Positions 2,352 to 62,031 of a stretch of DNA of 64,000 bases are shown here, piece by piece. The stretch comes from Antedon mediterranea. Its lineage: Eukaryota; Echinodermata; Crinoidea; Comatulida; Antedonidae. Under the pieces are notes generated by a model. It saw only the letters and a program-made list of their open reading frames with translations, was not told where the DNA came from and did no database searches. Position 1 is the stretch's first letter. Each line of letters opens with the position of its first letter. The position numbers and the translations under genes are program-made. The DNA is taken from positions 1,555,001 to 1,619,000 of the forward strand of contig NC_092677.1 in the NCBI RefSeq assembly GCF_964355755.1, given 5' to 3'.

Positions 2352-2737
2352 GTAAGTCCACTATAAGTACGTTGCATTGTATTATTGTAAATTTTCGGGT
2401 TTGAACGAAATAAAAGTGGAAAAAACCCACAAAAGAAAAAAAAAATCCGTGCTTCGTTCCGAATTAGACAAGCATGAAAATGTTTGTTTTGCTGCGAAAC
2501 GATGCCAAAGGTTTCTTGATTTTGTTTTCTTAAAACCAATCATGTGGCATGAGTACCGAACAGCGACAATTAGTCAAAGAGGACACCAGGTCAGTTGCGA
2601 GAAGCCAAACAAAGAAAATATATACATATGGGTTCCCTGGATCTGTGTCTGCGCTCTGCATGTATCACTAATACACTTTATTATATTTTCATACAATTAT
2701 AAAAACACTGATACAGTACTCTAATAATTGTTTTAAG

Positions 2738-2868
2738 TACAGAAGTTCCAAAGAGCGTGTGTAATTCAACTGGTCTTGTTGTTGGAATGACGTTTGTTGG
2801 TGTGCTCATTGGATTGGATTCTTATGGGTTTTATTATCATCAGAAAAATAAGGAAGTCACATGCACAG
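2738..2868 (+). pseudogene. G1 transmembrane exon, frameshifted
   Basis: The block [14 protein letters not shown] is shared with the TM exons at 18077, 21929, 39021 and 53752. After it, 8 net bases are missing, and the reading becomes LDSYGFYYHQK, so the membrane span is lost in this frame. The donor CAG|GTAAAG is intact. The paralogous acceptor has been lost; a downstream 'tacag' could serve. Confidence 0.65.
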
Positions 2869-7185: not shown

Positions 7186-7240
7186 ATGAAGAATATGAAT
7201 AGTCTTATTAAATTGTTGCTTGTTTTTATGTTTCCATCTA
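7186..7240 (+). CDS. G2 signal-peptide exon
   Basis: [18 protein letters not shown] has a Lys at position 2, a Leu/Val/Phe core and ends at A|GTAAGT in phase 1. It is a classic leader and sets the start of G2. The next exon is 293 bp on. Confidence 0.75.
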
Positions 7241-10200
7241 GTAAGTATTAAAGTGTTCACTCACTCATCTGTTATTTGTTGCCGCTACACCTCACGACTA
7301 TAATTATCTTATCCTGATTGTGTTTGTTCAGCCTATAGGCCTATTCTATTTCAGTTGATTGGAATTAAAAATGTCAAAGCGGGGATGAATTATTATTGAA
7401 CATTCTATATAGTTTATTTATTTATTTCAACTATATTTTATGGTTGTCCATCCAGTCGAGGTTCATTAGGGACTCTCAGAATAACATGTATTTTTGGTCT
7501 GTACTGCAAGTGACTCCCTGACTTTTTTCTAGATGTTTTAATGCAAGTAGTAACTGTTACACCAGCTGTTGTCAAAGAAAGCGAAACAGCTACGATAGAA
7601 TGCAGCTACACAAATCCACCCCCAGCCCTGAACTTAATCAGTTGGTACCGTAGCGACGAACAAGGCAACCAAGAAGGAAATCCACTTGCTATTACTGATA
7701 CTACTCCATCACCAAATAGCCGTTATTCTCTAATAAGTGGTACAAATAGAGGTGATCTTAGGATTTCAGATGTTGTCAAGGCTGATGCAGGGAACTATGA
7801 GTGTAATGTGGTGTTTGCTGGCGGTATTATTATGAACAAGGTTACCAATCTTACCGTTCAATGTATGTATTAAAATTGAATGACATATACGAGATATATA
7901 CAGTCTACATTGTGCCTAGGTTACCTAGACAAACCGAGAGGCCTTTCCAACTCTGTGAGTTGCACCCTCATGTAGATGACCTCACCCATACATCTGTTAG
8001 TGCTTCAGACGATCTGTCCACTGAATTAATCCTTAAGTTATAAATAATAATTAAGAGGAATGTTTATTAATTAATTTAATATTAAAATTACAGACTGCAT
8101 TTTAAGGCATATAGTATTTGCTGTTTGTATGCGAGAACAGTGTTGATTGAGGTAGACACTTAACCTCCCCCAACATACACCCCTCCCCCTCACCTTTGTT
8201 AGGAAATGTTAGTTTGCAGATTTGTAATTATTTTCAAATTAGTGTCTGCATTCAATTTTTACAAATCAGAATGAGCACTAAACCCTAAAACACACAAAGG
8301 AATTTGAGTAAATTTGGAGAATATCTCCTATAAATTAATTAAGTGTGTCAGATGTCTTGGAGACAATTACTGACGGGAGGTGAAGGGCGCCCCCCGTGGA
8401 TTTGAGATGTTGTGTGCGGATGAGGAGAACGCACGAGAGGAGAGATGAACACGACGAAGAGAGTTGGATGGACATTTCCGAGTAATGATGTTTATATTAC
8501 TTGTTAGTTAATAATTTGATGTTTAAGAGGTATAATACGACGTTGGAAATAGAATTCGAGTGTGAAGATGTTTACTGTAGTTTGAACTTACATGGATTGT
8601 AAAGGATTTCATAGATTTAGAGTAGATTACTATACGAAAAGTTTGTTAATTTGTATTCAATGTTATCAACGGATCAAGATTGTTGAAGCTTGCCATGGTT
8701 GAAGTGTTACTGATATTGGAATTGTTTTAGTTCAAGACAAAGAATTGTTGATACTGTTTTGTACTACTTATTAAACTGTTGCAAAATTTTATACTTAATC
8801 GTATTCACTTTATTTGGATTCTTTACGATCTGAGGGGCTATACTTATTGATAACTCCCACACCCCCACATTACGAGAAATGGCGACGAGGATGGGATGTA
8901 GCAGTTTGTAAGTACTGTACAATTACCATAATTGTAAACTTCTAGCATAGGCCTAGATCCCGATTACGATTATTGACATTTCCGAAAGTAAACTAGGAAG
9001 CGGTTTAGCGATTCATTTATAAAGGAAGGATTTTACGACGTGGCGTACGTGTGATATAAACGGATTGTTGTGTTTACCGTTGCAGTGTTTTTGTTTAATG
9101 ACAGTTCGGCGATTGTGAAGTGCGCCACCTAGTTATGATTGAACTATAGTATTAATTCTAATTTGGAATAAGAGATCGAGTTACGTGTGGATATACTTTT
9201 GTGCAGATATTTTGATTGTGAAGGACGCCACCTATCAAGATTTGGACTAGTAATACTGTATTGTTGAAGCTAGAACTATTTTGACTTTTAAGCACTATAT
9301 TTATGAAACATTTTTATTTGTTGATTGATTGGAATTATTTTGATTGATTGATGGTATAAGTGTAATATTTATGGTAGAATAAGGGTAAAAACAAAAATTA
9401 TATACATTACCCAATAGATGTTTTTTAAGATTTTGGTGCATTAGTACATGTTAGAGATAAGCTCAGTAGTATATAAATTGTGTAATAAGAATTTATTTGT
9501 ACTGTAAGAGCTCAGTCTGAAATTATGGCAGAAGAACCAGCTGAAGATCAAGCGTCCATGCAGGGGATGATGCAGGCTTTGACTGATGTCCTACAAGGGT
9601 TAAGAGTTCAGCAAGCTCCACCTCCGGTGAAAATAGCCAAGTATAGAGGGTCTACAAAAGCAGATGGAGATTTGTCACTAAAAGAATGGTTAGATGACTT
9701 TCAGAGTTATGCCAACCACTATAACCTGACAGGAAAAGCAAAAGCGCAGTCATTATTGGATCATCTAGCAGGTTCAGCGAAAGAAGAGATTCTTTGCAGA
9801 GAAGGAAACGTGAGAGAAGACTATGACCAAGTAGTGACAGTGTTAAAGTCTTTGTTCGGACCAATAGAAACAGTACCTTCTCTAACTCGAGAATTCCACA
9901 ACCGGAACCAAAAAGATGTTGAGTCGCTAGCAGATTTTAGCCGTGTTCTAATGAGATTATATACAAAGATGGTAAAGGCAGCTGCAGTAGAAGAAGATAA
10001 GGATGCTTTGAAGAGGCTGAGGGATTATACATTGAAGGAAAGATTTGTTCATGGTGCCAAAGAAGGTTGGGTTAGGAGAGAACTAAGGAGAATAGAAATG
10101 CAGTGTAAAGATAAGACATTTTTGGAAATGCGGGAGGAAGTGTTAGAATTTTTTAAGGATGAAGAGCCAAGGCATCAGGCCAGAGTTTGTGAGGTGTCTA

Positions 10201-13200
10201 TGGAACATTCAGTAGAAGCAAGAAGGGTAGAAGAACCAGCACTAAAAGAAGAAATTGCTGCATTAAAAAATGACGTAGCGATGCTAACGAAGAGTGTACA
10301 GAGCTTGATAAATATTCAGAGTGCTGACATGGAACGAGCTAAAGAGTTAAAGTGTTACAATTGTGGCAAAAAGGGACATGCAAAGACAGACTGTACAGAG
10401 GAGACATTGTGTTTTAATTGTAAAGGAAGAGGGCATTACAGTAGAAACTGTCCGGAGAAACCTAAAGAGAAGGAAGCTAAAGGACCGGGGACAAAGCGGA
10501 TGTCAACCACACCAATGGAAAATACAGAGTTGGTAGATCGACTGGTCGCAAAAAGTCCTTGTGGTGATGTGGAAATCGGAGGCATCATGCTGGGTTGCAT
10601 TTTCGACACGGGTGCAGAAGCATCGATTATACCATCGTCACTGTATCACGATAAACTAAAAAAGAATCTTGGTGAATTACAGCCCGCATCTGGAATATTC
10701 CTAAATGTTATTGGAGTAGGCGGGATTGAAATCCCAATTAAAGGCTACATTGAGGTACCGATTGAAGTGAATGGTCAGAACTTGATGGGAAGTTTTCTAG
10801 TAGTATCAGATCAGTCTTGTACACAGAAGGACACCAAGTATCCTCTTGTAATCGGCTGCAATATTCTTAGACATTTAGTGAATTCGCCAATACAGAGCAG
10901 TAAGGATGTGGTACCAGCTATTCGGAAATACAAAATCATACTTGCGTCAGAGGAGGATAAAATGTTATTAGCGTCGAGCAAAGTGATGAATGATGGTGAT
11001 GTTCATAACAAATGTGCAGATGCACTGAGTCGTTGTCCAAGTAATACCTGTGTTAATTCCTCGGAGTTAAAAAGTGACCTGAACGTGATCGCATCCTGTT
11101 TGATGACAAAAGTTGAAGGTGGTTCCATAGAAGTAAATTCTGTTGTACCAACAGTGTTGCCGTCATTTTCACATGAAGAATTGTCAGATATGCAAAAGAA
11201 TGAAGACGTTTTCTCTAAGGGAATCATAGACGTTGGTAGATGTGCTGTGATTTCTCACCAAATCAAAGTTACAGAAGGACCACTAATTAGATTTCCATAT
11301 AGAAGGATTAATCCATCGTTGATTCCAAGAATCGCGGTACCTTTACACGCGGTAACTACAGGGATGACCAACAAACAAACAGGGAAGGCAGCTGTTTTTA
11401 AGACGGAAGATGAACAAAAAGAGGCAGCAAACCGAGAAGCCGCACGACATGATGGTCGCACTACAGACTTTAAATTGGAGGTTGGGAATAGAGTGTTGTT
11501 GAAACGAAATGCGTTTACTGGACGTCATAAGTTATCAGATAAATTTCAAGAAGTAACTCATGTGATTATAGACATGAATGAAGAACAGGATATTTATGAA
11601 GTTAGACCAGCAATGGGTGGAATTTCCAAATGGGTAAATCGACGTCAATTGCACCTTGATCCACGTGGCCAGGAATCAGATGTCTTGGAAGATCATCTTC
11701 CTATATTTGTATCAGATGAGAATAGTGAGGGTAGTGAAGAAGAAGATGACGAGGGTGATGCTTTGTTACAATTAGTGTTTACTCCTTCTGTAGAAAACAA
11801 AGAGATAGACAATATGATTGTTTCTGTAGAAAACAAAGAGATAGACAATATGATTACTTCTGTAGAGAACAAGGAGATAGAAAATCAAGTTAAGAATATT
11901 GAAGATAGGGATAAAGGGTTGAGACGATCAAGTAGATTGAATAAAGGGAAACATGGAAATCCATGTCATTTGCCGACATCGGCAGTAGGGGTTCATGATT
12001 AAAATTGTATGCTACTCTGTTAATAGAAGATCACTTGAGTATTAGGGATTAGCTTGAATTATCTTTAATAGTTGTTATGTTGATATTGCAGATAATTTAT
12101 GAAGTTTACGTTACATAGATGATAAGTAATTTGAAATTTTTTTAAATTTGTTTTTTTGTTAAGTTTTCAGAGAAATATTTTTTTTATTTGTATTGTACAT
12201 TCGGGGACGAATGTTTTTCAAACAGGGAAATTGACGGGAGGTGAAGGGCGCCCCCCGTGGATTTGAGATGTTGTGTGCGGATGAGGAGAACGCACGAGAG
12301 GAGAGATGAACACGACGAAGAGAGTTGGATGGACATTTCCGAGTAATGATGTTTATATTACTTGTTAGTTAATAATTTGATGTTTAAGAGGTATAATACG
12401 ACGTTGGAAATAGAATTCGAGTGTGAAGATGTTTACTGTAGTTTGAACTTACATGGATTGTAAAGGATTTCATAGATTTAGAGTAGATTACTATACGAAA
12501 AGTTTGTTAATTTGTATTCAATGTTATCAACGGATCAAGATTGTTGAAGCTTGCCATGGTTGAAGTGTTACTGATATTGGAATTGTTTTAGTTCAAGACA
12601 AAGAATTGTTGATACTGTTTTGTACTACTTATTAAACTGTTGCAAAATTTTATACTTAATCGTATTCACTTTATTTGGATTCTTTACGATCTGAGGGGCT
12701 ATACTTATTGATAACTCCCACACCCCCACATTACGAGATTACTACGTACTTACTAGATGCAAACATCTGACCAATTAACAATTAATATGATATATATTTG
12801 TTCTTCATCAGATCTTGATCCTCCATCAGTGAGAGAGTCCTCTATGTCCGTACTAAGTGACAGTACAGCTACGCTTGAATGTACCTTGCCAGATGGAGTA
12901 CCAACTGAAATAAGTTTTTCCTGGTTTATATTCGATGAATTAATTAATATTGATAACAGTGAAAGATTTAGTGGTTCTTTATACAACCAGAACTTGACCA
13001 TTAGTAATGTCATGTCCACTGATGAAGGATCTTATCGTTGTCGAGCCGAGAATTCTGCATATTCTGGTAGTGAAGGAAGATACAGCAGTCGCTTTCTAGA
13101 TTTAACAGTAAATTGTAAGAAATTTCTTTCATTTTTTTAGATTAAATCTGAAAAGAATAAAAAATGTGTGCTGTACATGATTATATTTTGCTTGAAGTTG

Positions 13201-16200
13201 CTTTGTGGTATAAATTTGATTTTTGCCAAATTTGTTATATTCTATTACAGATGTAGCATTAACAACTATGGAATGGATTGGAGGTAAAGTAACATGTAAG
13301 GCAGAGGGGAATCCAACGCCAAGAGTCACCGTTCAACTCGATCAATCTGATCTTGAATCCGGTACTGGTTCGGTGTCTGCTGACATTTCATGCGATACAA
13401 CATCAGTCATAACATGTGTTATTGACAATAACGTCAATCCATCTGTTACAGAAACTTTTAATTCTTGTGATGGTAAGTTGACCTCTACGTTAATCTAATC
13501 ATGTCATATTGTGAAGACAAAATAATATATTTTTATTTAGTTATTATTATTATTATTGTACCTATACATTTCAAAAATTAGAATTTGTCATTGTTCCCAA
13601 AGGTCGTAAATGCTTGTTTGCTATTTTGTTGCCACAGTATACAATAATAATTTTAATTAAAAATCTCTGGATACATTTAATATTGTCAAAATTCAACAAA
13701 GTTTCTGTCCTTAATTCAATATCAGTCTTTTCTTTAAACTTACTTGTTCAACTGGACTGTTTACTATAAATATTTTTCACTCCTGATACAGTATGCCTGT
13801 TCCAATATAGTAACTTCCCGTTGTTACCCAGGCTTTGCATGTTATGTGTTAATATGGACCTATACATTAGGTCTATGGTGTTAATACTCACTTTTAAGCT
13901 CTTAATAACCTTGCAATGTTATGACTTAATGTTAATATTGCTATGCATGTTTGCTTTTATTTCAAGATGCATGTTCTTCAAGTCCTTGTGATAATCAAGG
14001 GACTTGTGAGATTAATGATAATGGTTTTAGTTGTCAATGTACCTCAGGCTTTGAAGGTGTTACATGTAAACAAGGTATGTAGACTAGATGCATTGACACT
14101 CATAATCAAAGGGTTACATGTAAACAAGGTATGTGAACTAGATGCATTGACACTCATAATCAAAGGGTTACATGTAAACAAGGTATGTGAACTAGATGCA
14201 TTGACACTCATAATCAAAGGGTTACATGTAAACAAGGTATGTGAACTAGATGCATTGACACTCATAATCAAAGGGTTACATGTAAACAAGGTATGTGAAC
14301 TAGATGCATTGACACTCATAATCAAAGGGTTACATGTAAACAAGGTATGTAGACTAGATGCATTGACACTCATAATCAAAGGGTTACATGTAAACAAGGT
14401 ATGTAGACTAGATGCATTGACACTCATAATCAAAGGGTTACATGTAAACAAGGTATGTAGACTAGATGCATTGACACTCATAATCAAAGGGTTACATGTA
14501 AACAAGGTATGTAGACTAGATGCATTGACACTCATAATAAAAGGGTTACATGTAAACAAGGTATGTAGACTAGATGCATTGACACTCATAATCAAAGGGT
14601 TACATGTAAACAAGGTATGTAGACTAGATGCATTGACACTCATAATAAAAGGGTTACATGTAAACAAGGTATGTAGACTAGATGCATTGACACTCATAAT
14701 CAAAGGGTTACATGTAAACAAGGTATGTAGACTAGATGCATTGACACTCATAATCAAAGGGTTACATGTAAACAAGGTATGTAGACTAGATGCATTGACA
14801 CCCATAATCAAAGGGTTACATGTAAACAAGGTATGTAGACTAGATACATTGACACTCATAATCAAAGGGTTACATGTAAACAAGGTATGTAGACTAGATG
14901 TATTGACACTCATAATCAAAGGGTTACATGTAAACAAGGTATGTAGACTAGATGCATTGACACTCATAATCAAAGGGTTACATGTAAACAAGGTATGTAG
15001 ACTAGATGCATTGACACTCATAATCAAAGGGTTACATGTAAACAAGGTATGTAGACTAGATGCATTGACACTCATAATCAAAGGGTTACATGTAAACAAG
15101 GTATGTAGACTAGATGTATTGACACTCATAATCAAAGGGTTACATGTAAACAAGGTATGTGAACTAGATGCATTGACACTCATAATCAAAGGGTTACATG
15201 TAAACAAGGTATGTAAACTAAATGCCTTGACACCCATAATCAAAGGGTTACATGTAAACAAGGTATGTAAACTAAATGTATTGACACCCATAATCAAAGG
15301 GTTACATGTAAACAAGGTATGTAGACTAGATGCATTGACACTCATAATCAAAGGGTTACATGTAAACAAGGTATGTAGACTAGATGCATTGACACTCATA
15401 ATCAAAGGGTTACATGTAAACAAGGTATGTAGACTAGATGCATTGACACTCATAATCAAAGGGTTACATGTAAACAAGGTATGTAGACTAGATGCATTGA
15501 CACTCATAATCAAAGGGTTACATGTAAACAAGGTATGTAGACTAGATGTATTGACACTCATAATCAAAGGGTTACATGTAAACAAGGTATGTGAACTAGA
15601 TGCATTGACACTCATAATCAAAGGGTTACATGTAAACAAGGTATGTAAACTAAATGCCTTGACACCCATAATCAAAGGGTTACATGTAAACAAGGTATGT
15701 AGACTAGATGCATTGACACTCATAATCAAAGGGTTACATGTAAACAAGGTATGTAGACTAGATGCATTGACACTCATAATCAAAGGGTTACATGTAAACA
15801 AGGTATGTGAACTAGATGCATTGACACTCATAATCAAAGGGTTACATGTAAACAAGGTATGTGAACTAGATGCATTGACACTCATAATCAAAGGGTTACA
15901 TGTAAACAAGGTATGTGAACTAGATGCATTGACACTCATAATCAAAGGGTTACATGTAAACAAGGTATGTGAACTAGATGCATTGACACTCATAATCAAA
16001 GGGTTACATGTAAACAAGGTATGTAGACTAGATGCATTGACACTCATAATCAAAGGGTTACATGTAAACAAGGTATGTAGACTAGATGCATTGACACTCA
16101 TAATCAAAGGGTTACATGTAAACAAGGTATGTAGACTAGATGCATTGACACTCATAATCAAAGGGTTACATGTAAACAAGGTATGTAGACTAGATGCATT

Positions 16201-18597
16201 GACACTCATAATAAAAGGGTTACATGTAAACAAGGTATGTAGACTAGATGCATTGACACTCATAATCAAAGGGTTACATGTAAACAAGGTATGTAGACTA
16301 GATGCATTGACACTCATAATAAAAGGGTTACATGTAAACAAGGTATGTAGACTAGATGCATTGACACCCATAATCAAAGGGTTACATGTAAACAAGGTAT
16401 GTAGACTAGATGCATTGACACTCATAATCAAAGGGTTACATGTAAACAAGGTATGTAGACTAGATGCATTGACACCCATAATCAAAGGGTTACATGTAAA
16501 CAAGGTATGTAGACTAGATACATTGACACTCATAATCAAAGGGTTACATGTAAACAAGGTATGTAGACTAGATGTATTGACACTCATAATCAAAGGGTTA
16601 CATGTAAACAAGGTATGTAGACTAGATGCATTGACACTCATAATCAAAGGGTTACATGTAAACAAGGTATGTAGACTAGATGCATTGACACTCATAATCA
16701 AAGGGTTACATGTAAACAAGGTATGTAGACTAGATGCATTGACACTCATAATCAAAGGGTTACATGTAAACAAGGTATGTAGACTAGATGTATTGACACT
16801 CATAATCAAAGGGTTACATGTAAACAAGGTATGTGAACTAGATGCATTGACACTCATAATCAAAGGGTTACATGTAAACAAGGTATGTAAACTAAATGCC
16901 TTGACACCCATAATCAAAGGGTTACATGTAAACAAGGTATGTAAACTAAATGCATTGACACCCATAATCAAAGGGTTACATGTAAACAAGGTATGTAGAC
17001 TAGATGCATTGACACTCATAATCAAAGGGTTACATGTAAACAAGGTATGTAGACTAGATGCATTGACACTCATAATCAAAGGGTTACATGTAAACAAGGT
17101 ATGTAGACTAGATGCATTGACACTCATAATCAAAGGGTTACATGTAAACAAGGTATGTAGACTAGATGTATTGACACTCATAATCAAAGGGTTACATGTA
17201 AACAAGGTATGTGAACTAGATGCATTGACACTCATAATCAAAGGGTTACATGTAAACAAGGTATGTAAACTAAATGCCTTGACACCCATAATCAAAGGGT
17301 TACATGTAAACAAGGTATGTAGACTAGATGCCTTGACACTCATAATCAAAGGGTTACATGTAAACAAGGTATGTAGACTAGATGCATTGACACTCATAAT
17401 CAAAGGGTTACATGTAAACAAGGTATGTAGACTAGATGCATTGACACTCATAATCAAAGGGTTACATGTAAACAAGGTATGTAGACTAGATGCATTGACA
17501 CTCATAATCAAAGGGTTACATGTAAACAAGGTATGTAGACTAGATGTATTGACACTCATAATCAAAGGGTTACATGTAAACAAGGTATGTAGACTAGATA
17601 CATTGACACTCATAATCAAAGGGTTACATGTAAACAAGGTATGTAGACTAGATGCATTGACACTCATAATCAAAGGGTTACATGTAAACAAGGTATGTAG
17701 ACTAGATGTATTGACACTCATAATCAAAGGGTTACATGTAAACAAGGTATGTGAACTAGATGTATTGACACTCATAATCGAGGTGTTACTTGTTAACAAG
17801 GAATGATTCTGAAAATATAGATTTGTATTCTTTAAAAAAAATTTGATTTCAGAATATTCATCAAAATAATATTAATAATTAACTTGAAAATTATTACTTT
17901 CATGTTGAACCAAATAATACACAATTGGTATAAATACCTTTAGTCACGTTTCGTTGACATACTGTCAACTTCTTCAAACTAATACCAATTTTGTATGTAT
18001 TTTTTGGTTCAACATCATTATTGTAAACATGTTTAAAACACATGGTAACAGTTAGCCTTCTGTATTAATTGTTTAGTTTTAAGTACAGAGGTTCCAACGA
18101 GTGAGGGTGTATGTAATTCAACTGGTCTTGTTGTTGGAATGACGTTTGTTGGTGTGCTCATTGGATTCATTATCTGTTTGATTGTGGGTTTTATTATCAT
18201 CAGCAAAATAAGAAATTGAAAGTTACAGGTGAAGTATGATTTAGACAGCAAGAGTATAGGAATAAAATGACCAAATGAAATACCGCATACTTTTGGTAAT
18301 GGAAAAGTATATTAATATTTAATATGATGTTTTATTTTAAAGGCACCGACATCGAAAATCAGGGTAAGGATGCTATACATTAATTATTCACTCTACTCAT
18401 CAACATCATCATCATTATTATTTTTACTATTGTCACCAATATCGCCAATAAACGTTTACACTATTTTCATTCTTCATTATCCATGCAATAAACTTCTGTA
18501 TTGTTTTTAGTTGCAAGAGTATATGACTTATACTGGAGAGACAGATAACGAAACAAACCACACATACCAAGATTTACAGAAGAAAGACGATAATTAA
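7186..18597 (+). CDS. G2: Ig-Ig-Ig-EGF transmembrane receptor, tail cut off
   Basis: Exons: 7186-7240, 7533-7862, 12812-13114, 13251-13472, 13967-14074, and 18077 to the TGA at 18217-18219. All extracellular exons are phase 1-1, and the joined length (1161 nt) is divisible by three with no internal stop. The predicted product is 386 residues: signal peptide, V-type Ig, C2-type Ig, a third Ig-like domain, a six-Cys EGF, a TM segment and then a stop four codons past the membrane. Linker (18343-18363) and tail (18511-18597) exons follow but would not be translated. Introns carry an LTR element (8371-12737) and a splice-donor minisatellite (14058-17800). A cell-surface recognition role is inferred from domains. 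Confidence 0.65.
7533..7862 (+). CDS. G2 V-type Ig exon
   Basis: The acceptor is tttttctag|AT and the donor T|GTATGT, 330 nt, phase 1-1. It shows IECSYT (Cys 1), [14 protein letters not shown] (core Trp), SRYSL and DAGNYEC (Cys 2), followed by VTNLTVQ. The pattern is that of a complete V-set domain, closest in the window to 37583-37903. Confidence 0.8.
7863..8365. other. Intron of G2 upstream of the LTR insertion
   Basis: No exon or repeat stands out. The sequence ends in the left copy of the 5-bp target duplication at 8366-8370. Confidence 0.4.
8371..8876 (+). repeat. 5' LTR
   Basis: It starts TGACGGGAGG and ends CACATTACGAG, 506 bp, the same as the right LTR by eye. It should carry the element's promoter; no clear TATA box was picked out. 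Confidence 0.88.
9525..12002 (+). CDS. Gag-protease ORF with rearranged pol remnants
   Basis: 825 codons. In order: a retrotransposon Gag region (about residues 35-220); a Glu-rich linker; two CCHC zinc knuckles ([14 protein letters not shown] and [14 protein letters not shown], about 277-310); an aspartic protease with [10 protein letters not shown] (about 360-367). Then come only scraps of pol: CADALSRC (the end of RNase H) near 503; DVFSKG..DVGRC and PYRRI (the N-terminal edge of reverse transcriptase) near 570-595; and an integrase C-terminal part near 640-725, ending in a charged tail with a repeated [10 protein letters not shown]. The RT catalytic core and the integrase core are missing, and the RNase H piece precedes the RT piece. 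The frame is unbroken. The element must have depended on a full-length relative to move. Confidence 0.85.
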   Translation: MAEEPAEDQASMQGMMQALTDVLQGLRVQQAPPPVKIAKYRGSTKADGDLSLKEWLDDFQSYANHYNLTGKAKAQSLLDHLAGSAKEEILCREGNVREDYDQVVTVLKSLFGPIETVPSLTREFHNRNQKDVESLADFSRVLMRLYTKMVKAAAVEEDKDALKRLRDYTLKERFVHGAKEGWVRRELRRIEMQCKDKTFLEMREEVLEFFKDEEPRHQARVCEVSMEHSVEARRVEEPALKEEIAALKNDVAMLTKSVQSLINIQSADMERAKELKCYNCGKKGHAKTDCTEETLCFNCKGRGHYSRNCPEKPKEKEAKGPGTKRMSTTPMENTELVDRLVAKSPCGDVEIGGIMLGCIFDTGAEASIIPSSLYHDKLKKNLGELQPASGIFLNVIGVGGIEIPIKGYIEVPIEVNGQNLMGSFLVVSDQSCTQKDTKYPLVIGCNILRHLVNSPIQSSKDVVPAIRKYKIILASEEDKMLLASSKVMNDGDVHNKCADALSRCPSNTCVNSSELKSDLNVIASCLMTKVEGGSIEVNSVVPTVLPSFSHEELSDMQKNEDVFSKGIIDVGRCAVISHQIKVTEGPLIRFPYRRINPSLIPRIAVPLHAVTTGMTNKQTGKAAVFKTEDEQKEAANREAARHDGRTTDFKLEVGNRVLLKRNAFTGRHKLSDKFQEVTHVIIDMNEEQDIYEVRPAMGGISKWVNRRQLHLDPRGQESDVLEDHLPIFVSDENSEGSEEEDDEGDALLQLVFTPSVENKEIDNMIVSVENKEIDNMITSVENKEIENQVKNIEDRDKGLRRSSRLNKGKHGNPCHLPTSAVGVHD
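12232..12737 (+). repeat. 3' LTR
   Basis: 506 bp, matching 8371-8876 in length and, by eye, in sequence. It is followed directly by the right target-site copy ATTAC at 12738. Confidence 0.88.
12812..13114 (+). CDS. G2 C2-type Ig exon
   Basis: The acceptor is tcatcag|AT and the donor T|GTAAGA, 303 nt, phase 1-1. The domain starts [10 protein letters not shown] and shows [17 protein letters not shown] (core Trp) and [16 protein letters not shown]. The AENAAY(S/H)G signature is shared with 21088 and 38287. It begins only 70 bp after the LTR element, so the insertion nearly reached the acceptor. Confidence 0.8.
13251..13472 (+). CDS. G2 third Ig-like exon
   Basis: 222 nt, phase 1-1, acceptor attacag and donor G|GTAAGT. 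It begins [19 protein letters not shown] and has several Cys (VTCKAEG, ISCDTT, ITCVID, FNSCD). The first part fits an I-set start with NPTP. The Cys-rich end is unusual and may be a diverged or atypical Ig fold. Confidence 0.65.
13473..13966. other. Intron of G2
   Basis: Only A/T-rich sequence with a short (ATT)n run near 13540 is seen. Confidence 0.4.
13967..14074 (+). CDS. G2 six-Cys EGF exon
   Basis: 108 nt, phase 1-1, reading [20 protein letters not shown] and then [15 protein letters not shown]. It has six cysteines in the canonical EGF order with GFEGVTC at the end. The donor is CAAG|GTATGT. This exon end together with its donor is the seed of the 54-bp minisatellite that follows. Confidence 0.85.
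14058..17800 (+). repeat. 54-bp minisatellite of about 69 units carrying splice donors
   Basis: The unit is 54 bp and includes TTACATGTAAACAAGGTATG, the last codons of the EGF exon plus its donor, followed by intron sequence (AGACTAGATGCATTGACACT and a short spacer). About 69 units run without interruption. Variants (GTATGTAG, GTATGTGA, GTATGTAAAC; TGCATT or TGTATT; CACTC or CACCC; AATCAAAG or AATAAAAG) recur in the same order 1674 bp apart, which is 31 units. Because 54 is a multiple of three, long frames stay open on both strands; they are by-products. Confidence 0.95.
17807..18076. other. Intron of G2 after the minisatellite
   Basis: It holds a local inverted match, TTGAACCAAATAATACACAA against a diverged reverse copy ending TTTTGGTTCAACATC (about 17904-18015), suggesting a small foldback remnant. 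Confidence 0.35.
18077..18228 (+). CDS. G2 transmembrane exon with in-frame stop
   Basis: It reads [20 protein letters not shown], then a hydrophobic stretch and IISKIRN, then TGA at 18217-18219. At this place G7 has TCA. The donor ACAG|GTGAAG follows the stop. The Lys/Arg after the span should hold the protein in the membrane with a cytoplasmic end of only a few residues. Confidence 0.75.
18343..18363 (+). other. G2 linker exon, downstream of the stop
   Basis: A 21-nt copy (APTSKIR) of the linker exon at 3001-3033, between ttttaaag and GTAAGG. It would lie in the 3' UTR if the TGA at 18217 is used. Confidence 0.4.
18511..18597 (+). pseudogene. G2 Tyr-rich tail exon with a second stop
   Basis: It reads [20 protein letters not shown] and then DLQKKDDN, followed by TAA at 18595 where the paralogues have CAA (Gln). 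The second Tyr motif (YVNV) is therefore lost even if the exon were translated. The G2 tail is doubly cut. Confidence 0.65.
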
Positions 18598-19626
18598 GCT
18601 GTATATGTAAATGTTTAAGCAAAGAAGGACAACAAATAATATACATGTTTAAAATAAAATAAGTATATTATTATAATCAATAGAATGATTGCAATGGTTT
18701 GAAACTACAATCACATACCTCTTGTTGATTGTTTTTATAGAAATAGAAGAAGTGTTTTCTTTCATTTTCTATAATAAAAATGAAATGTAAATGCTGCAAT
18801 GTATCATCATTATCAACAACACAACCTATAATAGTGAAATAATCTACCAACGGTATAACGCAACAGTAAAGATCAAATTCGTAATGTAATGTAAAAATTA
18901 AAACCATATATATACTTGCAAAATATAAAAATAAGATTAATATAATTGTATTTCTTGCTTTGATTTTTTGGAAATAAAACGTACTTGGTTGTAGACCGAC
19001 TTTAATTTCTTTCATTTGAATTAAATGTATTAATGCATATATATATATATACGGACTATACCAGCATAAGAAGAAAAATACTACAAAAAAACTATACACA
19101 ATCATTGATTTGAACACCAATACACATTTAATTGTATTATTGTTATCGTTCTTTAAGTTAATTCGCCTTCGCGATATGTATTTGTCGCTTACTGCCATTT
19201 TCAAAGAGTTTAGTAAGTTCAAATTGATTTGACAAGGAAGGATCAAAATATAGGAACAAAGAAGGTTTGGCATTGTTGGGGTAAATTTCTCTTTTAGGGA
19301 AGACATTAGAAAATACCTATAAAAAATAAATAGTAGTTTGAACTACTTTATAAATACAATTTTTAGAAAGTCATGTGTTTTTTACTTTATTTTAAATAAT
19401 TTATACTGTTTAGAAAATTAATTTGATCATCTAGATTTAGAGGGCAGTACAGTGCACTATAATTATGAGGAAGTAAATATAATACATCAGTGTGAACGCC
19501 AATTCATCACAATCATAACAATAGCAGGAACAATCAGTATTTAAGTATACAATACAGTGGAGTATGGTAGAGTGCGATACAATAACAGCGGAATAATCGT
19601 CACCTTACGAAGCGGGACAAGGCGAA
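18598..19626. repeat. 3' flank of G2 and 5' flank of G3
   Basis: 18600-19300 repeats the G1 3' flank (about 3300-3900). 19172-19209 is a diverged signal exon (MYLSLTAIFKEF, donor GTAAGTT). About 19440-19560 matches 4110-4230. No gene is seen on the minus strand; a long open frame there is only an A/T-rich shadow. Confidence 0.5.
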
Positions 19627-23578: not shown

Positions 23579-26500
23579 GTAAGTACACAGTGACCAACTA
23601 TACTGCGACAGCACAACCCCCTTAGTTAGCTGTAGCCACTATTCTTTGCCAGATTAATAAATCTTACGACTGTTTGATAACACACTTGGTTAGTTTTAGC
23701 CGAGTCTAGGACTTACTCATTTTCTCCTCTTCTTCCATCTGGACACTATTGAGTAAAAAGTGCGATTTTTAAAGTACTACTCCTCCCTTATTAGTTGTAG
23801 TATTGAGCTGGGATTTGGCATGAATATACTACAGGGACATGTCCTAAAATCTATAGAGCCGGATTTTTAAATTTCAGACCGGATGCAGCCATATGACGTC
23901 TCGAAGATGGTACCATATAGCCGTATTTGGTAGGTGTATGTGACGTCACATCTTGTCTTATGACGTCATTACAGCTTCATTTGATGTACCCCGAGTATCG
24001 CACATTCGTGCTTTTTACTCGGGGTACTTACTCATTTTCTCCTTCTCTTCCTCCATCTGGACACTATTGAGTAAAAAGTGCGATTTTTAAAGTACTACTC
24101 CTCCCTTATTCGTTATAGTATTGAGCTGGGATTTGGCATGAACATACTACAGGGACATGTCCTCAAAGCTATAGAGCCGGATTTTTAATTTTTTGTTAAT
24201 TAATTTGTTTAATTAAGAAGCCACAATGTGTGACACACACCACAGCGTTATGTAGTTATATGGTTATATGCGGATTCTTGGCGTAGTGGTTATCACGTTT
24301 GTTTAACTCGCAGAAGGTACCTGGTTCGATCCCGGACGAAACCTTTTTTTTAAACTTTATGGTGAAAAGTACTGTATACGCAATATGATAATTATACAGA
24401 GTATATCTTATTTTTATTATTTTTTAAAATACTTATTTTGTGTAATCGGTAATTATCACTTTTACACATGTTTATTTTGCTTTGTGCTTATTACCATTTA
24501 TTTGTAATTTAAATGGATTAAAAAACTTTCTGTAACCCACATTTTTAATGTAAGAGGTTTCGTAGTGTAGTGGTTGTCAAGTCTGCTTAACACGCAGAAG
24601 GTCCCGGTTCGAGCCCTGGCGAAACCTATTTTCTTTACTTTCTAACTGTATACGTCTGTATACAGCTTCTTTCGCTGTACCCCGAGTATTGCACATTCGT
24701 GCTTGTTTGTTAATTAATTTGTTTGATTAAGAAGCCACAATGTGTGACACACACCACAGCGTTATGTAGGTACATGCGGCTTTTTGGCGTAGTGGTTATC
24801 ACGTTTGCTCAACACGCAGAAGGTACCTGGTTCGAGCCCTAGCGAAACCTATTTTTCTTTAACTTTATGGTGAAATAACTGTATACGTAATATGATTTAG
24901 AGTATATCTCGTTTAATACGAAAAGATATTACAATTCAGTGACTTATTTCTATATTTACTCGGGGTACCTGAGTCTAGGACTCTCTCATCTTTTCCTCTT
25001 CTTCTTCCATCCGGACACTATTGAGAAAAAAGTGCGATTTATAAAGTACTACTCCTCCCTTATTCGTTGTAGTATTGAGCTCGGATTTAGCATGAATATA
25101 CTACAGGGACATGTCCTCAAAGCTATAGAGCCGGATTTTTTAATTTCAAACCGGATGCAGCCATATCACGTCTCGAAGATGGTACCGTATAGCCGTATTT
25201 GGTAGCGCGGTTATTGATGTGTATGTGACGTTACATCCGGTCTTATGACGTCATTACAGCTTCTTTCGCTGTACCCCGAGTATTGCACATTCGTGCTTGT
25301 TTATGGAAGGTCCATAGTCGACAATTTCACTATTTTTTTCAAAATCTTCAAATAGCTGCCTGAGCATATTCGGCGACACGAATTATTGTAATAAATATAA
25401 CTTTTTTCTTCTCGTTTCAAAATGGTCATGTGAGACTTTCGCTATAAAATTTATCTTTTAGAATTGTCTCTTTTGCTCTCCTAAGTTTCCTGCATTTTAT
25501 TCAAGCTTTCTTCTCTGTAGAAGATGAACGGTTTTTAAAGAGGATGCATTTTTAAATAATAATAATAATAGGCCTACTGATGTGTATTTTTTTTATTTAG
25601 TTTTATTCTGCATTTGTTATGGAGTGTCTGTAAATATCAACAACTTAGATGCTGTACATGAAGGCTCTGACACAAGAATGACATGTACATATACAAGAGA
25701 CAGTAGTACTAGTTCAAGTGATCCTATTGTGACATGGAATAAAATCATAGACGGGGAAGCAGATAGAATATCAGCAACTCAGAATGGATCTATAATCATA
25801 GAACCTTCGTACCAAGAGAGATTTGGCGTTGATAGAGATGATGATAGAATTCTTGTGATTTCTAACACTTTGCGAATTGACAGTGGCACATATCAATGTG
25901 AAGTTGTTATATTTGATGACCCACCAGTGGATGATGATACTGTGACATTAAATGTGATATGTACGTATACGGTTAAATTCAAATATTTGTATACAGATAC
26001 AGACGGTAGTCATAGTATATTTTTTAGTTGTTTATAATATAGTTTTAAAATATTTCAATTTCATAGTACTGTATTTATTTTTGGAATATAAAAATATTGT
26101 TTAGGCCTATATTCACTAGATCGGTACCCAATATATTGCTTTGTTTAATTTCAGTGTCAAATAACTGTTCCAATCACGCTTGTTCTAATGGAGGTGTTTG
26201 TACACCGTCTTCTAGTTCTATGGGATACACATGTTCCTGTCCACCGTGTTTCTTTGGACAATTGTGTGAAACTCGTGAGTTTTCACTACCGGGAAAGTAC
26301 TGTAGATAACAAGCCGAACTATACATTGAGCCTTTTCAATAATAAAGAAAGTATATAAAACTAGATTTTAAGTCGTCGCTTGAGTCATACGTTAGAATAC
26401 AAATAAATGTTTTACTGGAACATTATGTGAAAATACAAATTTAATTCATGTACTTTACAGTATAAAATATTTTTGTTAACTCGAATAAATGTATTTATTA

Positions 26501-29500
26501 TCATCAGCGTCAAATGCTTGCTCCAACAACCTTTGTCAGAATGGAGCTGTTTGTAACACTGTTTCTGGTTCCTGTACAGCATACACGTGTACATGTCCAT
26601 TATGTTTTACTGGATCATTCTGTGAGACTCGTAAGTTCTATGTTTGTCTGCCTGCCTTTAGCACAGTTCAAATACAAATATAATCATATATTTCACAGTA
26701 TAAAATCATTTTTGTAACTCCAATACATTAATTTATTATTACCAGGAATAAATGCTTGTGACGCCCACCTTTGTCAGAATGGAGGTACATGTAACACTAT
26801 TGTTGGTTCCTGTACTTCTTACACGTGTACCTGTTCATCATGTTTTACTGGAACATTCTGTGAAACTGGTAAGTTCTATGTTTTTTCTGCTTTTCTTTAT
26901 CAGAATTCAAATATGTATTTTACAGTCTATAGTTTTCTGAAAACTGTAATGTTCTCTTTTGTATAATATTCACTATCAGCGTCTGATGCTTGCGACGCAA
27001 GTTCTATGTTTGTCTGCTTGTCAGCCCGTGCCGACTGAATCTGCCCTATAATATTCCAGTATAAAATGTAACTAGAATGCATTCATTTTTTATTATCAGG
27101 AAATGCTTGCACTGGCAACATTTGTCAGAATGGAGCTGCTTGTAACACTGTTTCTGGTTCCTGTACAGCATACACATGTACCTGTCCATTATGTTTTACT
27201 GGAACATTCTGTGAGACTCGTAAGTTCTATGTTTGTCTGCTTGCCTTTATCACAGTTCAAATATAAATTTAATCATGTACTTTACAGTATAAAATCATAT
27301 TTGTAACTCAAATAAATGTATTTATTATCATCAGCGTCAAATGGTTGCTCCAACAACCTTTGTCAGAATGGAGCTGCTTGTAACACTGTTTCTGGTTCCT
27401 GTACAGCATACACATGTACCTGTCCATTATGTTTTACTGGAACATTCTGTGAGACTCGTAAGTTCTATGTTTCTCTGCTTCCCTTTATCACAGTTCAAAT
27501 ACAAATTTAATCATGTACATTGCAGTATAAAATCATTTTTTTAACTTGAATAAATGTATTTAACAGCGTTAAATGCTTGCTCCAACAACGCATGTCAGAA
27601 TGGAGGTACATGTAACGCCGTTGCTGGTTCCTGTACAGCATACACGTGTACCTGTTCATCATGTTTTACTGGAATATTCTGTGAAACTGGTAAGTTCTAT
27701 GTTTGTTCTCCTTTTCTTTATCAGAATTCAAATATGTATTTTACAGTCTATAGTTTTCTGAAACTGTAATGTTCTCTTTTGTATAATATTCACTATCAGC
27801 GTCTGATGCTTGCGACGCAAGTTCTATGTTTGTCTGCTTGTCAGCCCGTGCCGACTGAATCTGTCCTATAATATTCCAGTATAAATGTAACTAGAATGCA
27901 TTCATTTTTTATTATCAGGAAATGCTTGCAATGGCAACATTTGTCAGAATGGAGCTGCTTGTAACACTGTTTCTGGTTCCTGTACAGGATACACATGTAC
28001 CTGTCCATTATGTTTTACTGGAACATTCTGTGAGACTCGTAAGTTCTATGTTTCTCTGCTTCCCGTTATCGCAGTTCAAATATAAGTTTAATCATGTACT
28101 TTACAGTATAAAATCATATTTGTAACTCGAATAAATGTATTTATTATCATCAGCGTCAAATGGTTGCTCCAACAACCTTTGTCAGAATGGAGCTGCTTGT
28201 AACACTGTTTCTGGTTCCTGTACAGCATACACATGTACCTGTCCATTATGTTTTACTGGAACATTCTGTGAGACTCGTAAGTTCTATGTTTCTCTGCTTC
28301 CCTTTATCACAGTTCAAATACAAATTTAATCATGTACATTGCAGTATAAAATCATTTTTTTAACTTGAATAAATGTATTTAACAGCGTTAAATGCTTGCT
28401 CCAACAACGCATGTCAGAATGGAGGTACATGTAACGCCGTTGCTGGTTCCTGTACAGCATACACGTGTACCTGTTCATCATGTTTTACTGGAATATTCTG
28501 TGAAACTGGTAAGTTCTATGTTTTTTCTCCTTTTCTTTATCAGAATTCAAATATGTATTTTACAGTCTATAGTTTTCTGAAACTGTAATGTTCTCTTTTG
28601 TATAATATTCACTATCAGCGTCTGATGCTTGCGACGCAAGTTCTATGTTTGTCTGCTTGTCAGCCCGTGCCGACTGAATCTGTCCTATAATATTCCGGTA
28701 TAAATGTAACTAGAATGCATTCATTTTTTATTATCAGGAAATGCTTGCAATGGCAACATTTGTCAGAATGGAGCTGCTTGTAACACTGTTTCTGGTTCCT
28801 GTACAGGATACACATGTACCTGTCCATTATGTTTTACTGGAACATTCTGTGAGACTCGTAAGTTCTATGTTTCTCTGCTTCCCGTTATCGCAGTTCAAAT
28901 ATAAGTTTAATCATGTACTTTACAGTATAAAATCATATTTGTAACTCGAATAAATGTATTTATTATCATCAGCGTCAAATGGTTGCTCCAACAACCTTTG
29001 TCAGAATGGAGCTGCTTGTAACACTGTTTCTGGTTCCTGTACAGCATACACATGTACCTGTCCATTATGTTTTACTGGATCATTCTGTGAGATTCGTAAG
29101 TTATGTTTGTCTGCTTGCTTTTATCACAGTTCAAATACAAATTTAATCATGTACATTGCAGTATAAAATCATTTTTTGTAACTCGAATACATTTATTTAT
29201 TATTAACAGCGTTAAATGCTTGCTCCAATAACGCATGTCAGAATGGAGGTACATGTAACGCCGTTGCTGGTTCCTGTACAGCATACACGTGTACCTGTTC
29301 ATCATGTTTTACTGGATTATTCTGTGAAACTTGTAAGTTATGTTTGTCTGCTTGCTTTTATCACAGTTCAAATACAAATTTAATCATGTACATTGCAGTA
29401 TAAAATCATTTTTTTAACTTGAATAAAATGTATTTAACAGCGTTAAATGCTTGCTCCAACAACGCATGTCAGAATGGAGGTACATGTAACGCCGTTGCTG

Positions 29501-61320: not shown

Positions 61321-61443
61321 GAAATGCTTGCACTGGCAACATTTGTCAGAATGGAGCTACTAGTTGTGTCCAGGTTTCTGGTTCCTGTACAGCATACACC
61401 TGTACCTGTCCAACATGTTTTACTGGAACATTCTGTGAGACTT
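61321..61443 (+). CDS. G8 EGF exon 4
   Basis: NACTGNICQNGATSCVQVSG, SCTAYTCTCPTCFTGTFCET. Eight Cys. Confidence 0.85.
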
Positions 61444-61564
61444 GTAAGTTCTATGTTTTTCTGTTTGCTTTATTTACAGTTCAAATAAAAATTTAATTCA
61501 TGTATTTTACAGTAAAAAGCATGTTTGTTACTCAAATACATTTATTAATTATTATTATTATCAG

Positions 61565-61687
61565 TATTGAATGCATGCTCCAACAATGCTGGTCAGAATG
61601 GAGGTGGTTGTGTCCAGGTTTCTGGTTCCTGTACAGCATACACCTGTACCTGTCCATCATGTTTTACTGGATCATTCTGTGAAACTT
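61565..61687 (+). CDS. G8 EGF exon 5, one Cys lost
   Basis: LNACSNNAGQNGGGCVQVSG: the second Cys codon TGT is GGT (Gly), so one disulfide cannot form. The rest is intact. Confidence 0.8.
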
Positions 61688-61800
61688 GTAAGTTATGTTT
61701 GTCTGCTTGCTTTTATCACAGTTGAAATACAAATTTAATCATGTACATTGCAGTATAAAATCATTTTTTTAACTCGACTAAATGTATTTATTATCATCAG

Positions 61801-61923
61801 CGTCAAATGGTTGCTCCTACTACATTTGTCTGAATGGAGGTACATGTAACACTGTTGCTGGTTCCTGTACAGCATACACATGTACCTGTCCATCATGTTT
61901 TACTGGAACATTCTGTGAAACTG
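61801..61923 (+). CDS. G8 EGF exon 6
   Basis: SNGCSYYICLNGGTCNTVAG, SCTAYTCTCPSCFTGTFCET. Eight Cys, with a G4-like NTVAG loop. Confidence 0.85.
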
Positions 61924-62031
61924 GTAAGTTCTATGTTTTTTCTGCTTTTCTTTATCAGAATTCAAATATGTATTTTACAGTCTATAGTTTTCTGACACTG
62001 TAATTTTCTCTTTTGTATATATATATTGCAG

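Follow-up and report, generated by a model that had tools for sequence, protein, structure and literature searches.

Intronic minisatellites, that of TERT intron 6 among them, are said to affect splicing; the TERT unit, to our knowledge, lacks a donor site. A closer system is the VNTR of human ABCA7 intron 18, which starts at the exon-18 donor such that the first two bases of its unit are the donor GT (PMC5954066). In the part of that report used here, retention of one unit amounts to 2 ± 1%, is unchanged with VNTR length and causes a premature stop, and longer VNTRs are associated with more skipping of the downstream exon and lower expression, long alleles raising disease risk (PMC5954066). 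Tandem splice-site copies also figure in the Rogers model, in which introns are gained via tandem duplication of an AGGT segment, and for which 24-bp AGGT repeats of fission yeast are cited (PMC4974935). Here we describe an array of 69 donor-bearing units in an immune-type receptor gene of the feather star (crinoid) Antedon mediterranea, for which a literature search (titles and abstract starts, open-licence PMC articles) gave no earlier description among the papers listed. The window analyzed is 64,000 nucleotides long and corresponds to positions 1555001-1619000 of contig C8 in an assembly of 354,431,138 bases and 18 contigs (G000); positions without a contig name refer to this window.

Structure and distribution of the array

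The original prediction, a 54-bp array made of an EGF exon end and its GTATGT donor, describes a real structure with 69 donors in exact register. The motif CAAGGNATG is present at 70 sites in the window and 69 of 69 spacings are exactly 54; the sequence AAG/GTATGT (the slash marks the exon-intron boundary) accompanies 69 of the 70 sites, at 14075 + 54k for k = 0-68, the last at 17747, and the 70th slot at 17801 reads AAG/GAATGA, without a GT. TRF calls the region 14054-17805 with a period of 54, 69.5 copies, 97% match and 0% indels. The seed of the repeat is the final bases of the EGF exon: each unit consists of about 33 bp of intron start (from GTATGT to ATAATC) followed by a copy of about 21 bp of exon end (AAAGGGTTACATGTAAACAAG), and the array thus comprises one real donor and 68 copies, all AAACAAG/GTATGT and free of indels. 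The designation of 14075 as the real donor is based on the NCBI protein model. The exon-end copies read AAAGGGTTACATG and the real EGF exon reads AAGGTGTTACATG, so that positions -16 to +6 are common to all 69 donors and -21 to +6 to the 68 copies. From -27 to +6, 64 of the 69 donors are identical and four, those following D-type units, are one base off; the first donor matches the copies from -16 on only. In this one assembly, the head-to-tail units, of a size within the 10-100 bp or so of minisatellites and VNTRs, carry ordered variants, and the array begins at the real donor of an exon and has a donor in each unit, as in an ABCA7-like donor-site VNTR.

Table 1 Features of the array-bearing gene (window positions).
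Feature	Position	Strand	Remarks
Signal-peptide exon	7186..7239	+	P0001 residues 1-18; ends approximate
V-set Ig exon	7533..7862	+	P0001 mapping, Pfam
I-set Ig exon	12812..13114	+	P0001 mapping, Pfam
Third extracellular exon, I-set to EGF	13251..13472	+	translation as in P0001
EGF exon	13967..14074	+	108 nt, phase 1-1; Pfam PF00008, E 4e-05; residues as in P0001
Real 5' splice site GTATGT	14075..14080	+	implied by NCBI protein model P0001
Minisatellite	14075..17800	+	69 units of 54 bp
AATAAA in D-type unit	14536..14541	+	one of 4 such units; others start at 14644, 16210, 16318
Last, diverged unit	17747..17800	+	5 changes, in exon-derived half; retains GGTGTTAC like real exon
Imperfect inverted repeat	17902..18015	.	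between array and transmembrane exon; 20-nt arms 95% complementary; MITE-like by eye
Transmembrane exon	18077..18228	+	acceptor TTGTTTAG/TTTTAAG; TGA 18217-18219 right after transmembrane segment; donor GT 18229
Cytoplasmic-tail exon, decayed	18511..18636	+	2 in-frame stops

The AATAAA of the D-type units arises by one C to A change, and these four are the only AATAAA or ATTAAA hexamers within the array-bearing intron. The predicted RNA fold of the EGF-exon end and first units (14020-14300) is no better than that of shuffled sequences (z 0.20; 111 of 200 shuffles as good).

Calling the donors near-perfect, as had been done originally, overstates their strength. In the pairing model for U1, 56 array donors score -8.4 kcal/mol and 13 score -7.6. 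A set of 34 donor rows from the vicinity, compiled by motif and including one duplicated entry and one or more doubtful ones, has 10 donors stronger than -8.4, two equal to it (the donor itself and its paralog) and 22 weaker, so AAG/GTATGT is simply a good donor. Outside the array, array strength is reached by 139 GTs out of 17,227 (one strand). Within the array gene, also outside the array, 2 of 493 GTs are this strong (13473 and 18229), both of which are real or likely donors.

The array is not a chance accumulation, as indicated by the excess of AAACAAGGTATGT: 117 occurrences genome-wide (354 Mb; 91 on the forward and 26 on the reverse strand) compared with 7 + 11 for the backwards-pattern control, the array accounting for 69 of the 117 (at least 63 among the matches listed). 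A dispersed satellite was considered and rejected, because a 190-base whole-genome query found two candidate places, namely this array and a single-copy paralog, and no further locus (these counts being lower bounds). Within 286.9 kb surrounding the gene, all runs of three donors derive from the array (67 of 67 at gaps of 41-71 and 65 of 65 at gaps of 72-100), with none at gaps of 2-9 or 10-40 and none on the opposite strand. An exact IMG/VR search with a 24-base piece of the unit gave 0 matches.

In the same 286.9 kb, TRF reports 32 rows (period of at least 10, at least 4 copies, overlaps counted), of which the array is the largest. A U1 site of array strength on either strand is found in 2 of the 32 consensus units, against about 0.8 expected by arithmetic (periods adding up to about 784 bp, with about 1 site per kb on both strands); capture of a donor-like site is therefore unremarkable, and the unusual part is the capture of a real donor and growth to 69 copies. 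Other large minisatellites are present nearby, e.g. a 24-bp unit repeated 45 times with 99% matches in the paralogous gene; this array (C8:1653547-1654626) lies just past the transmembrane exon of the P0002 gene, probably in its next intron. Separately, tandem duplications of about 238 bp at 26431-29608 and 61337-61968, each including a whole EGF exon and intron, have produced runs of near-identical EGF exons.

Host gene, paralog and growth of the array

A search with the joined-exon protein gave 344 candidates, of which 6 had E <= 10; these 6 proteins all belong to Antedon mediterranea, and the species assignment rests on them. The best match, P0001 (NCBI 'lachesin-like', 386 aa), is 98% identical over 100% of the query and is the product of the array-bearing gene. 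Pieces of P0001 map to 7186-7239, 7523-7861, 12814-13113 and 18076-18216; this mapping (97% or more) does not list the third extracellular and EGF exons, the translations of which do occur in P0001. The protein joins the EGF exon to the transmembrane exon with the array skipped. Pfam identifies two Ig stretches and one EGF domain, after which come a transmembrane segment and the C-terminus KIRN. A search of solved structures gave 93 distinct chains at E <= 0.001; among the best 60, Ig cell-surface and Notch-type EGF proteins rank at the top, and none of these 60 explains the array.

The transmembrane exon ends early and the tail exon has two stops at places where the tail exon of relatives is open, suggesting a receptor that would not signal via the tail of its relatives. 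The reading frame of the ectodomain is open. Comparison with the paralog gives a dN/dS of 0.57 (15 synonymous and 30 nonsynonymous changes in 321 codons, both branches together), which fits relaxed or diversifying evolution of a gene that does not appear plainly dead.

Within the 286.9 kb (C8:1445001-1731900), 21 other places match the transmembrane exon; two of these matches are short (47-49 bp), and seven of the 21 extend 44-87 bp into the preceding intron. Judged by its sequence, this region is a large receptor cluster. By eye, tails encoded in the cluster contain possible tyrosine signalling motifs. The paralogous transmembrane exon of the first gene in the window (2730-2860) has an 8-base gap relative to the array gene and its match splits into two frames; it is likely a decaying copy. 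In an intron of the array gene, an LTR-type element (8371-12531) that is not present in the paralog has two 300-nt direct repeats, 100% identical, and one long open frame, gag-like by eye; from these sequence features it is a recent insertion.

The paralog (protein P0002; C8:1656981, minus), located on the opposite strand at a distance of about 87 kb, is array-free and differs from the array gene at 45 of 963 sites over four compared exons (15 + 14 + 14 + 2). Its junction has one exon end followed by GTATGTAGACTAGAT, an insert of about 0.83 kb, TAGAT again and GCATTGACACCCATAATCAAATGTG. The insert looks LINE-like, with a reverse-transcriptase-like reading in a raw frame; the sequence after it is TAGATGCATTGACACCCATAATCAAATGTG, and there is no second exon end. 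From this single-copy junction the unit can be read as about 21 bp from the end of the exon plus about 33 bp from the beginning of the intron, which in the array runs to about ATAATC(AAA) and then returns to the exon end. Because the paralog is free of the array, the duplication would postdate the paralog split, and the single copy is presumably the ancestral state, which bears out the proposed expansion from the exon-intron junction. The paralog state ACACCC is seen in 9 of 68 array units and, being common to both, is probably the older one. Gain of an intron by AGGT tandem duplication was rejected as the origin, since P0002 has an intron after the matching exon. The transmembrane segment of the paralog differs from that of the array gene; given that the transmembrane exon of the latter belongs to another group, that of the 21 matches, the array gene looks chimeric, with the join seemingly in or near the array.

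With units coded by type, the array becomes a 69-letter string that, when shifted by 31 units, aligns with itself over a run of 26 units with at most 2 mismatches; 0 of 500 shuffled strings reached this length and the best reached 14. The run is a trace of recent block duplication, typical of minisatellite growth, the mechanism of which was presumably exchange or slippage.

Predicted transcripts and competing explanations

Most units were originally thought to contain a stop just after the donor in the EGF frame. This is true for all of them: a stop follows the donor as the second full codon in 69 of 69 units (TAG in 50, TGA in 13 and TAA in 6). We modelled the isoforms from all 69 donors (the EGF exon, k-1 units and the transmembrane exon), and a single one encodes a transmembrane receptor, which supports the view that only the first donor leads to the full protein. 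The 68 later donors all predict one truncated protein, consisting of the EGF domain, Gly-Met and a stop (VTCKQGM) and lacking the transmembrane segment; since the length of the unit is divisible by 3 and each unit has its own stop after the donor, the product is identical whichever later donor is used. Nonsense-mediated decay follows a distance rule of 50-55 nt. In RNA retaining one unit, the stop would precede the new junction by about 46 nt, so decay would require a junction further downstream; if more than one unit is retained, the stop would lie about 100 nt or more upstream of the new junction. By analogy with ABCA7, skipping of the transmembrane exon could be a further route to a form without this segment.

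The explanation that we favor, with a probability of about 0.7, is that a minisatellite arose by chance at a splice junction, lies within an intron and grew by block duplication, with mild and largely tolerated effects. A tandem duplication would have spanned the junction between the EGF exon and the next intron of a tail-less Ig-Ig-EGF receptor gene, and the array would then have expanded by block duplication, in minisatellite fashion. Being intronic, the array is removed with the intron when donor 14075 is used, and no other donor would lead to the membrane receptor. If a later donor were occasionally chosen, or the intron retained, the outcome would be the same truncated, secreted form (ending in VTCKQGM), or alternatively a transcript exposed to nonsense-mediated decay. 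That the effect is mild, largely tolerated and not selected is probable by analogy with the low next-donor use of ABCA7 and in view of the decayed tail; nevertheless, long ABCA7 arrays did matter, so this part may fail for 69 units.

The sole result that sits uncomfortably with drift alone is the distribution of changes within the unit. In 68 units (the count omits the last one, with its changes in the exon-derived half), 8 positions vary (7, 8, 13, 16, 17, 18, 26 and 33), all of them intron-derived, whereas positions 34-54 and 1-6, the 27 of the exon end and donor, are invariant. This resembles constraint (hypergeometric p = 0.0021, post hoc and with sites taken as independent), although an equally long invariant gap anywhere on the circular unit has a p of about 0.06. 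The value of about 0.002 keeps in consideration a selected splice decoy, in which 68 competing donors would be maintained and would set the share of transcripts leading to a soluble EGF-ending receptor or to decay; the single product shared by every later donor and the identity of the donors over -16 to +6 (-21 to +6 for the copies) would also suit such a role. We nevertheless consider it unlikely: the p-value is post hoc and based on 8 sites, the protein set has a single form of the array gene (P0001, one member sequence), the signalling tail of the gene has decayed, and the one-unit isoform of ABCA7, in the portion of that work drawn on here, is no higher with VNTR length. Equally doubtful, if not slightly more so, is the more specific proposal that the balance between membrane and soluble receptor is set by the length of the array, with the exon-end and donor half kept by selection.

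The array had further been proposed to sponge U1, to block premature polyadenylation or to tune splicing. U1 snRNP is present at about 10^6 copies per vertebrate cell, and action in trans is unlikely and was rejected by reasoning, as 69 ordinary sites at one locus are tiny relative to this pool. Tuning of splicing, in contrast, is credible by analogy with human ABCA7. Protection in cis, with U1 along the array silencing intronic AATAAA and preventing premature polyadenylation in the 4-kb intron, is made possible by the four AATAAA-bearing units, each with donors on both sides, and by the density of sites pairing at -8.4 or better (56 in 3.7 kb of array vs about 0.49 per kb elsewhere, one strand); U1 silencing of proximal polyadenylation sites is described in vertebrates, according to the portion of the source used (PMC6946686). 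However, these signals were made by the array itself, which would mostly guard its own signals, and the intron without the array would be shorter than 0.3 kb, making this role very improbable. Recursive splicing, in which each AAG/GT would act as a fused acceptor and donor for stepwise removal of the array, is the least probable reading: the unit does begin with GT and end with AG, as ..AAACAAG/GTATGT, but by eye it has no pyrimidine tract before the AG, for which reason an identity as ratchet sites was rejected, and introns of 54 nt would be very short. It is also very improbable that the array is an assembly artefact or a haplotype-specific error in length. Tandem arrays are error-prone, and the C8 contig measures 28,582,174 bp compared with 28,587,047 for the contig behind P0001; on the other hand, the unit variants are ordered and non-random, with block structure, and ordinary long reads exceed 3.7 kb in length. 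The junction minisatellite is thus real and striking, and a tolerated one is the most likely reading.

Comparison with known systems

The locus offers a natural experiment on the choice of the spliceosome among 69 evenly spaced donors, identical over positions -16 to +6, and splicing at any later donor would show as one defined truncated product. Since the host gene belongs to a receptor cluster, a soluble form could matter there.

The Antedon array is comparable to the TERT intron-6 VNTR in being a minisatellite that lies in an intron close to an exon and could affect splicing. It resembles AGGT intron gain in that tandem AG/GT-containing copies create extra splice sites, but the duplication spans an existing junction within an existing intron, and the gene model implies no new intron or exon. 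The likeness to ABCA7, as far as the excerpted account extends, is closer: in both cases a minisatellite begins at a real donor and has a GT in each unit. The ABCA7 unit is 25 bp and intronic from the GT on, whereas the Antedon unit of 54 bp adds about 21 bp of exon; retention shifts the frame in ABCA7, whereas the Antedon unit is in frame with its own stop. ABCA7 alleles range from about 12 to 427 units and are polymorphic, compared with one 69-unit assembly here, and next-donor use is reported for ABCA7. In summary, the donor-site minisatellite is a class already known from ABCA7, to which the array described here adds a member from an echinoderm, one whose unit also includes exonic context.
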